Below, one piece after another: positions 31,782 to 34,046 of a stretch of DNA of 64,000 nt; position 1 is the first letter of the stretch, and the number at the start of each line of letters is the position of its first letter. Where the stretch lies: positions 1-64,000 of the forward strand of contig NZ_LSZH01000015.1 of assembly GCF_001647545.1 (NCBI RefSeq). The letters are read 5' to 3'. A program made the position numbers and the translations under genes. The DNA is from Acinetobacter sp. SFB. Its GTDB lineage: Bacteria; Pseudomonadota; Gammaproteobacteria; Pseudomonadales; Moraxellaceae. The notes below the pieces were generated by a model, which saw only the letters and a program-made list of their open reading frames with translations, was not told where the DNA came from and did not search any database.

Positions 31782-33056
31782 ATGTCAGATAGTCATATTC
31801 CACTGCCTGAACGGCTTCGTCCGCGTGATTTATCAGAAATTATTGGTCAAGATCATTTATTAGGTGATCAGGCTCCTTTACGCCAAATGATTGATCAGGG
31901 GCATTTACCCTCGATTATTTTTTGGGGACCACCGGGTGTGGGGAAAACCACCATTGCTGTGCTTCTGGCACAGGCGGTTGATCGACCTTTTGTCAGTCTG
32001 TCGGCTTTGAATACGGGCGTGAAAGAACTTCGTGAGATTATTGCTGAAAGTGGGGACTTACTAAAACCTGTGGTGTTTATTGATGAAATCCACCGTTTCA
32101 ATAAGTCACAGCAAGATGCCTTATTGAATGCAGTGGAAAAGGGTAAAATCACGCTGATTGGTGCCACCACAGAAAATCCTTCCTTTGAAGTGAATAGCGC
32201 ATTGTTATCGCGTTGTCAGGTGTATAGCCTGAATGCTTTAGATGCCGATTCGATCCAGACGTTATTGAATCAAGCATTGCAAAATGATGCTTTTTTAAAA
32301 GAACGATTGATTCAAATTGAAGAATATGAAGCACTCATTCAATTTGCTGCCGGAGACGCGCGTAAGGCCCTTAACCTGCTAGACCTGATCGCCAGCACCT
32401 TTGAACCTGAACTTGAAAACATCATTACCAATGCCATTGTGGTGAAAGTCGCGCAGCAGAATATTGCCCGCTATGACAAATCGGGCGAGCAGCATTATGA
32501 CCTGGTCTCGGCTTTTATTAAGTCAATTCGCGGTAGTGATCCGGATGCGACTTTGTATTGGATGGCGCGCATGCTCAAAGGCGGTGAAGATCCGATCTTT
32601 ATTGCACGTCGCATGCTGATCGCAGCTTCTGAGGATATTGGCAACTCCAATCCGAATGCACTGCTTCTTGCAGGAGAGTGTTTCCGTTCGGTTCAAGCTG
32701 TGGGCATGCCAGAATGTCGTATTATTCTGGGGCAATGTGCGGTCTATCTGGCCACCAGTGCAAAAAGTAACAGTACCTATTTAGCCATCAATAAGGCGTT
32801 GGATTTAGCTGAAAAAACCGCAAATTTACCGGTACCCTTACATCTAAGAAATGCGCCGACTAAATTGATGAAAGAGCAGGGCTATGGTGTGAATTATCTC
32901 TATCCACACAATTATCCAGAGCATTTTGTCTTGCAAGAGTATTTGCCGCCTGAATTAAAAGGCACCAAGTTGTATGAGTCCGCGCGAAATAAACGTGAAG
33001 TGGAAGGTGAAAAACTTCAACAACGTCGCTGGCAGCAGGAACAACAGCAGCAGTAA
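31782..33056 (+). CDS. rarA: Replication-associated recombination protein A (AAA+ ATPase)
   Basis: The 424-aa clamp-loader-like ATPase (RarA/MgsA, WRNIP1 homologue) acts at stalled replication forks. Walker A is GPPGVGKTT (near residue 49), Walker B VVFIDEIHRF (near 97), sensor 1 GATTENPSFE, and the arginine-finger region SALLSRCQVY. The C-terminus ends in a Gln-rich tail (RRWQQEQQQQ). The nine As after its stop codon are the T-run of a minus-strand terminator, so rarA has no obvious intrinsic terminator of its own. Confidence 0.96.
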   Translation: MSDSHIPLPERLRPRDLSEIIGQDHLLGDQAPLRQMIDQGHLPSIIFWGPPGVGKTTIAVLLAQAVDRPFVSLSALNTGVKELREIIAESGDLLKPVVFIDEIHRFNKSQQDALLNAVEKGKITLIGATTENPSFEVNSALLSRCQVYSLNALDADSIQTLLNQALQNDAFLKERLIQIEEYEALIQFAAGDARKALNLLDLIASTFEPELENIITNAIVVKVAQQNIARYDKSGEQHYDLVSAFIKSIRGSDPDATLYWMARMLKGGEDPIFIARRMLIAASEDIGNSNPNALLLAGECFRSVQAVGMPECRIILGQCAVYLATSAKSNSTYLAINKALDLAEKTANLPVPLHLRNAPTKLMKEQGYGVNYLYPHNYPEHFVLQEYLPPELKGTKLYESARNKREVEGEKLQQRRWQQEQQQQ

Positions 33057-33185
33057 AAAAAAAGCCCAACTCAGGGTGAGTTGGGCGGAAAATAGGATGT
33101 CTTGGGGGAGATACATCCTAGAGGGTAACAGTCATCTGGTCGGTAAGACCTCAGATGAAGATTCAATTACAATGTTGCTAGCTAT
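33055..33185 (-). ncRNA. Candidate intergenic small RNA, about 130 nt
   Basis: A minus-strand transcript is predicted from a sigma70-like promoter (33192-33220) to an intrinsic terminator (stem 33064-33086, then nine Us over 33063-33055). Inside it, hairpin 1 spans 33132-33158 (UCAUCU/AGAUGA with inner GGUC/GACC). Hairpin 2 has a perfect UAGGAUGU/ACAUCCUA stem (33113-33120 with 33093-33100) and a 12-nt loop displaying CUCCCCC. The longest ATG-started ORF fully inside is only five codons. No named family is recognised. Its terminator abuts the rarA stop codon. Confidence 0.65.
33064..33086 (-). terminator. Terminator of the candidate small RNA
   Basis: GCCCAACTCA-ccc-TGAGTTGGGC on the minus strand, a perfect 10-bp stem, is followed by nine Ts. 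On the plus strand no T-run follows, so the orientation is minus. Confidence 0.88.
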
Positions 33186-33191
33186 GAAATT

Positions 33192-33220
33192 ATATTAGCG
33201 GCTTAAGTATCGAATGTAAA
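33192..33220 (-). promoter_or_regulatory. Candidate sigma70 promoter of the small RNA
   Basis: On the minus strand TTTACA (33220-33215) and TAATAT (33197-33192) are separated by exactly 17 bases. The expected start is near 33185. Confidence 0.6.
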
Positions 33221-33279
33221 AACGATGATTTTTATTAAATAAATTTGTTTATCCGATTGCATGCTTTATTCATGATCAT

Positions 33280-33309
33280 AAAAAACCGAGCTTAAAAGCT
33301 CGGTTTTTT
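33280..33309 (-). terminator. purC terminator
   Basis: ACCGAGCT-taaa-AGCTCGGT is flanked by A and T runs, starting 18 bases past the purC stop. Confidence 0.9.
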
Positions 33310-33326: not shown

Positions 33327-34046
33327 TTAGATATCAGAAAGATCGAGACCTAAACGTGCTGCAACTTCTTCATAAGCTTCAACCACACCGCCTAAACCTT
33401 GACGGAAACGGTCTTTGTCGAGTTTTTTCTTGGTGTCTTTATCCCATAGACGGCAACCGTCTGGAGAGAATTCATCACCCAGAACAATACGGTCGTGGAA
33501 CACACCAAATTCAAGTTTGAAGTCAACAAGCAGCATGTTGCCTTTGTCGAACAAATCTTTAAGAACATCGTTGACTTGATAAGTCAGGACTTTCATTTGT
33601 TCAAGTTGTTCAGCAGTTGCCCAACCTAAAGCAATCGCTTGAGATTCGTTCACCATTGGATCGCCAAGAGCGTCATCTTTGAAGAACAATTCAAAAGTAG
33701 AAGGTGTTAACTCTTTACCTTCTTCAACACCTAAACGACGGCACAAGCTACCCGCTGCGTAGTTACGAATAACACATTCAACAGGAACCATTTTTAGTTT
33801 TTTCACTAAAACTTCAGTCGGAGAAAGAAGTTTTTCAAAGTGAGTTTCGATGCCAGCAGCAGCCAATTTTTCCATGATGAAGGCGTTAAAACGGTTGTTC
33901 ACCTTGCCTTTACGATCCAGCTGTTCGATTTTTTCGCCGTTAAATGCAGAGGCATCATCACGGAAGACTAGGATAAGGTGATCTGCACTGTCTGTTTCAT
34001 AAACAGATTTCGCTTTACCAGTATAGAGCAAGGTTTGTTTCAACAT
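33327..34046 (-). CDS. purC: Phosphoribosylaminoimidazole-succinocarboxamide synthase
   Basis: The 239-aa SAICAR synthetase joins CAIR and aspartate with ATP in purine synthesis. Diagnostic segments are [14 protein letters not shown] at the N-terminus, [20 protein letters not shown] and VDFKLEFG...[12 protein letters not shown]. Length is typical. The order dapA-bamC-purC is the same as in E. coli, with 36 bases between bamC and purC, so the three are probably one transcript. Confidence 0.97.

Follow-up and report, generated by a model that had tools for sequence, protein, structure and literature searches.

The minus strand between rarA and purC of Acinetobacter sp. SFB very probably carries a small RNA (sRNA) gene that is conserved in many Acinetobacter species and has no Rfam family. 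We consider it probable that this is a stand-alone gene whose product represses translation in trans, by means of anti-Shine-Dalgarno motifs. Within the window, by which we mean the whole 64,000-nucleotide stretch of DNA that was analyzed, rarA occupies 31782-33056 on the plus strand and purC 33327-34046 on the minus strand. The predicted sRNA gene lies between them on the minus strand, where positions 33055-33220 hold a promoter-like site, a predicted transcript of about 130 nt and a terminator. The features of the locus are as follows:

33247-33256, minus strand: TCGGATAAAC, a conserved block some 65 bases 5' of the predicted sRNA start (mean pairwise identity 0.86 across 19 thinned rarA loci)
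33215-33233, minus strand: operator-like near-palindrome AAAAATCATCGTTTTTACA, which includes the -35 hexamer (conserved blocks, 0.84-0.85)
33215-33220, minus strand: putative -35 hexamer TTTACA (motif match)
33192-33197, minus strand: putative -10 hexamer TAATAT (motif match)
33055-33186, minus strand: predicted sRNA transcript, about 130 nt (from sequence)
33132-33158, minus strand: predicted first hairpin (by folding; differs from the form kept in relatives)
33120-33126, minus strand: ACCCUCU, a UC-rich segment 5' of hairpin 2, its last U paired in the stem (block identity 0.96)
33093-33120, minus strand: hairpin 2, with stem UAGGAUGU/ACAUCCUA and loop AUCUCCCCCAAG (predicted fold and conservation)
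33055-33086, minus strand: intrinsic terminator with a perfect 10-bp stem, a loop of 3 and nine U (sequence and covariation)

The initial annotation had proposed an independent sRNA gene with a TTTACA-17 bp-TAATAT promoter, and both hexamers are present on the minus strand at 33220-33192, with 17 bp between TTTACA (33220-33215) and TAATAT (33197-33192). The -10 position, together with a CATA(C/G)C conserved at that point, would place the start of transcription near 33186. The perfect 10-bp terminator with nine U was likewise found where it had been described, at 33086-33055, abutting the rarA stop codon: the stem-loop spans 33086-33064, and the nine T at 33063-33055 overlap the final two bases of that codon. 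It had been said to have no other gene to serve, which fits the layout, as purC has a hairpin of its own and the sRNA hairpin, read on the plus strand, leads into GGAAAAT instead of a T run. The purC hairpin (33280-33309), located between the purC stop and the sRNA promoter, is preceded by an A run and followed by a T run, and apparently serves both purC and rarA as a bidirectional terminator. The region contains one promoter-like site versus a shuffle mean of 2.3 (sd 1.7) and two terminator-like sites versus a mean of 1.4 (sd 1.1); such counts are at chance level, so the motifs by themselves are no proof and conservation is the decisive evidence.

We profiled conservation as mean pairwise identity in ten-base blocks, using the 19 rarA loci that remained after a set of 30 had been thinned to below 90% identity. 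Three blocks covering the -35 region and the sequence upstream of it reached 0.84-0.86, the -10 block 0.66, the start block 0.77 and the block at UUACCGACCA 0.82. Identity was 0.83-0.96 from ACCCUCU to just beyond hairpin 2 and 0.76-0.92 across the terminator. The variable blocks in between fell to 0.32-0.55, two blocks near purC to 0.12 and 0.23, and the purC hairpin was partly conserved (0.52-0.80). With a putative promoter and a terminator of its own, both conserved, the locus has the makeup of an intrinsically terminated stand-alone sRNA gene. The near-palindrome at the -35 reads AAAAATGATCGTTTTTACA in many relatives and follows the pattern AAAAA(C/T)GATC(A/G)TTTTT. At up to three mismatches this operator-like motif had 32 matches in the same genome versus 10 for the reversed pattern, several sites matching both strands and hence being counted twice. 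The best match was the sRNA locus itself, with one mismatch; every other site had two or three.

The predicted transcript (33186-33055, 132 nt) folds with a z-score of -4.68, and none of 200 dinucleotide shuffles was equally stable. Hairpin 2 consists of an 8-bp stem (33120-33113 paired with 33100-33093) and a 12-nt loop, AUCUCCCCCAAG, at 33112-33101, so that the perfect stem with a C-rich 12-nt loop reported earlier is present. An iterated profile search from 72 loci yielded 91 matches, and alignment A1 comprises 55 sequences (E ≤ 3e-10, minus three duplicate loci and identical sequences). Across 16 named pairs in A1, 95.6% of cells pair and 10 pairs show two-sided changes. The covariation score was reached in 0 of 500 shuffles, and the measure of further pair types in 175 of 500. 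The compensatory changes that had been expected in the stems were borne out in the terminator, where all nine pairs counted show two-sided changes, but not in the stem of hairpin 2, whose sequence GGAUG/CAUCC is nearly invariant. Four of its seven counted pairs are invariant, two deviate solely through unpaired cells, and the outermost is paired in 36 of the 55 sequences, with two two-sided changes; hairpin 2 hardly varies, and its pairing is therefore not proven by covariation. ACCCUCU is also nearly invariant in A1. Two hairpins besides the terminator had originally been drawn, of which hairpin 2 is conserved, but the first, as drawn, does not fold significantly in this species (z-score -0.86 for the 5' region in the window) and takes another form in relatives, 8 of 19 of which reach z < -1.5 (mononucleotide shuffles). 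This 5' hairpin was judged by single-sequence folding; alignment A2 is unreliable in that region.

We then analyzed how widely the CUCCC-loop type, here called family A, is distributed. It is defined by ACCCUCU, a hairpin with the loop AUCUCCCCCAAG and a terminator, that is, the 3' half of the predicted sRNA. A BLASTN query of 181 bases hit 70 of the 175 Acinetobacter genomes (E ≤ 0.01), in some cases through a short weak match alone. Covariance model R1 matched 168 of the 175 at E ≤ 0.01, a count that overstates family A because it includes the paralogous family B, which has the same ACCCUCU-GGAUG core with another loop and also matches, at about 50-55 bits. A family A cut-off of E ≤ 1e-9 retained 79 genomes, one of which (G134) was rejected as a carrier and dropped, its sequence being that of family B. 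Family A was thus counted in 78 of 175 Acinetobacter genomes (R1, E ≤ 1e-9, G134 excluded), which is not an upper bound because diverged members under the cut-off would be missed. All 77 family A genomes that were read (78 minus G074; 80 copies in total) keep the C-rich loop hairpin, partly a selection effect because R1 was built from family A. In the genome of the window, the copy between rarA and purC scores 89.5 bits with R1, and the next match is family B at 49.8 bits.

Among these 77 genomes, family A sites lie beside rarA in 44, with OXA-type and/or porin genes nearby in 31 and elsewhere in 3, one genome (G149) being counted in two groups; the labels are approximate because neighbors were called through short protein motifs. 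Both rarA and purC fell within the fetched stretch in 40 of the 44 rarA-site genomes. In one relative (G026, L033:3251-4037), the interval between rarA and purC holds a tandem array of three full copies plus a fourth, weak match, with a -35-like pattern upstream of two of the three full copies. Outside Acinetobacter, 10 genomes among 299 of the taxonomic family matched at E ≤ 0.001 (best 1.5e-4), as did 12 of 293 genomes at the level of the order, two Acinetobacter aside (best 46 bits, G574). The exact core pattern occurred in 36 stretches of named genomes, 33 labelled Acinetobacter and 3 from other bins. The Acinetobacter labels include A. lwoffii, A. haemolyticus, A. schindleri, A. variabilis, A. 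venetianus and A. dispersus, and none of the 36 stretches is labelled A. baumannii. The plasmid and phage collections gave no family A match. Taken with the conserved blocks and the covariation, conservation at two main chromosomal sites supports the proposal of an independent sRNA gene.

Family B, which accounts for many matches of 50-55 bits throughout the genus, is a second predicted sRNA of the form ACCCUCUGGAUGUG...CACAUCC, with a loop lacking CUCCC and a terminator of its own. It is represented by locus L082 (G000:C2:6866-6937, minus strand) and similarly by L101-L112 and L114; L082 and L110 had no Rfam match at the gathering threshold. A possible third RNA, L083 (G000:C15:131944-132007, plus strand), carries GAUUCUCCAU before a terminator and is flanked by genes for a porin and an OXA-type beta-lactamase; its match to the model is weak (35.4 bits).

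The sRNA could be real and yet work mainly through ACCCUCU-GGAUG, which would bind a protein or pair once the stem has opened, with the C-rich loop secondary. GGAUG/CAUCC is conserved beyond the need of a stem, the family B RNAs that were read keep ACCCUCUGGAUG with a different, non-C-rich loop, and PMC11472050 describes the first hairpin of the Acinetobacter sRNA Aar as opening on one target. The CUCCC loop, however, is kept in 77 of 77 genomes, albeit with a model selected in its favor, and we regard this alternative as unlikely.

The distribution of family A also bears on the idea that the transcript is a cis-antisense RNA, or the hairpin a shared terminator, at the 3' end of rarA. The RNA does lie opposite any rarA readthrough transcript, and its U tract overlaps the rarA stop codon, but 31 of the 77 genomes have the hairpin near OXA-type or porin genes instead and conservation is confined to the RNA and promoter blocks, which makes this reading very unlikely. 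We judge it more improbable still that the RNA is the 3' untranslated region or a processed tail of purC. Although the sRNA is directly downstream of purC on the same strand, purC ends in its own hairpin and T run, the -35 region beyond that hairpin is conserved, and other members have other neighbors. A small protein gene deserves almost no credence: a 53-amino acid frame is open at 32955-33116 (minus strand), with its ATG within the hairpin, but it passes through the terminator into rarA, and among relatives the distance separating the two stem arms changes by single bases, putting the frame out of register.

Given a stand-alone sRNA gene, we compared it with known families. No named family had been recognized at the outset, and the Rfam search agrees: at gathering thresholds, the sole match in the whole window was a partial 5S rRNA (positions 1-75, 42.1 bits), leaving the sRNA locus without a family. 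The best-scoring family at the locus, below threshold, was suhB/mmgR (RF00519; 34.2 or 29.6 bits versus 41). Both are short RNAs with a CUCCC stretch and a terminator, but CUCCC lies between hairpins in the suhB/mmgR model and in a hairpin loop in the window RNA. The alpha-r14 model (RF02344) reached 16.1 bits versus a threshold of 58.8. Like the window RNA, alpha-r14/NfeR1 and its relatives in Rhizobiales form multi-member families in which a C-rich anti-Shine-Dalgarno motif is exposed on a hairpin loop. According to PMC3927594 and PMC10746234, alpha-r14-type RNAs have CCUCCUCCC loops, with the motif on each of two to four hairpins and variable stems; the window RNA, by contrast, has one C-rich loop and a nearly invariant stem.

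Aar (RF02375, 60-bit threshold) was suspected on account of its CUCC seed and rejected, having no match at the locus. The actual Aar gene of this genome is found beside trpS, downstream of it (L162:2587-2774, 106 bits); in A. baylyi, Aar is presumably located between trpS and sucD. The two RNAs share the genus, and PMC11472050 describes for Aar a CUCC seed that covers Shine-Dalgarno sites and two 3' hairpins; in A. baumannii, the seed covers the Shine-Dalgarno sequence of carO (PMC11472050, PMC12802169 and PMC12646401). The Aar seed is a single-stranded region, whereas the C-rich motif of the window RNA is also found in a hairpin loop.

NgncR_162/163 are the gonococcal siblings of NmsRA and NmsRB of Neisseria meningitidis. 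In NmsRA/NmsRB, according to PMC5362039, the single strand joining stem-loops 1 and 2 is UC-rich, as is the loop of the second; each serves as an anti-Shine-Dalgarno motif, and the NmsRs lower the translation of TCA-cycle enzymes. By sequence and predicted fold the window RNA has this layout: its UC-rich single strand precedes a hairpin whose loop is also UC-rich, and a final stem-loop closes the 3' end. A possible counterpart of NmsR SL1 would be the predicted first hairpin, with the z-scores given above. The NmsRs are tandem siblings, whereas the genome of the window has a single strong copy and tandem copies occur in one relative (L033). The NmsR host belongs to another class of the phylum, and the likeness drawn here is one of layout. 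NmsR targets are central-metabolism mRNAs; those of the window RNA are candidates at most. Our literature search recognized no publication describing this RNA, although it did not cover sRNA supplementary tables, in which an unnamed entry is possible.

By analogy with the layout of these known RNAs, the most likely mechanism is trans-acting repression of mRNAs whose ribosome-binding sites are rich in G. If expressed, the RNA would be transcribed on the minus strand from near 33186 to the terminator abutting rarA. It would present two conserved pyrimidine-rich stretches, predicted to be exposed: ACCCUCU, candidate anti-Shine-Dalgarno motif 1, and UCUCCC(CC) in the loop AUCUCCCCCAAG, candidate motif 2. 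Only the loop had been put forward as the motif at first; it is kept, but ACCCUCU before hairpin 2 is at least equally conserved. Both stretches would base-pair with the purine-rich Shine-Dalgarno sequences of mRNAs encoded elsewhere, which would keep ribosomes from entering and reduce translation of these targets. Hfq would probably bind the U-rich 3' end, as suggested by analogy with the NmsR, alpha-r14 and Aar RNAs. The initial annotation is partly supported: it is right in outline, but the stem of hairpin 2, the presence of a second motif and the form of the first hairpin call for correction.

Next, we searched for candidate targets. In the genome of the window, GGGGGAGA stands 2-12 bases before an ATG at 7 sites versus 3 for the reversed control, a weak excess. 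Three of the seven are placed as Shine-Dalgarno sequences, before tsx, a 94-amino acid frame without a Pfam match and the gene for a PilX_N protein; the others precede a 213-amino acid frame (L219) and three frames of at most 57 amino acids. The tsx-like gene encodes 247 amino acids (Channel_Tsx, 54.3 bits versus a cut-off of 27.2), and its Shine-Dalgarno region, GGGGGAGAUA, could form 10 perfect pairs with the sRNA loop. A tsx homolog is present in 161 of 175 Acinetobacter genomes. The tsx Shine-Dalgarno region is unusually G-rich: all 30 best-matching loci (L218/L221, L222-L250) have at least five consecutive G upstream of the start, whether the genome carries family A (19 loci) or has no counted copy of it (11 loci). 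Across 18 genomes, predicted sRNA-tsx pairing averaged -17.8 kcal/mol within species versus -17.2 across species, and -12.7 (sd 3.4) for shuffled cores. Pairing with the own-species tsx was not significantly better, 405 of 5000 permutations being as good in this set, which includes several close relatives. The Tsx-like outer-membrane channel is one plausible target in this genome, a candidate and not a demonstrated one.

A broader reading seems to us possible but doubtful. Families A and B would form a modular, genus-wide set of RNAs sharing an ACCCUCU-GGAUG...CAUCC core and exchanging loops. Family A would occupy two alternative chromosomal positions, each with a related promoter bearing the operator, and would have multiplied in tandem in certain lineages. 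Targeting would involve the stem sequence itself, which would open on the mRNA, and the set would jointly control outer-membrane channels such as Tsx.

The Acinetobacter sRNA literature drawn on here concerns A. baumannii, and this RNA is found, among other lineages, in A. lwoffii, A. haemolyticus, A. schindleri and A. venetianus. The analysis predicts two anti-Shine-Dalgarno motifs, a stem whose sequence is kept, and an outer-membrane channel as a candidate target. If our reading is true, this would be an Acinetobacter case of an sRNA with an exposed anti-Shine-Dalgarno loop, a design already known in Neisseria and Rhizobiales.
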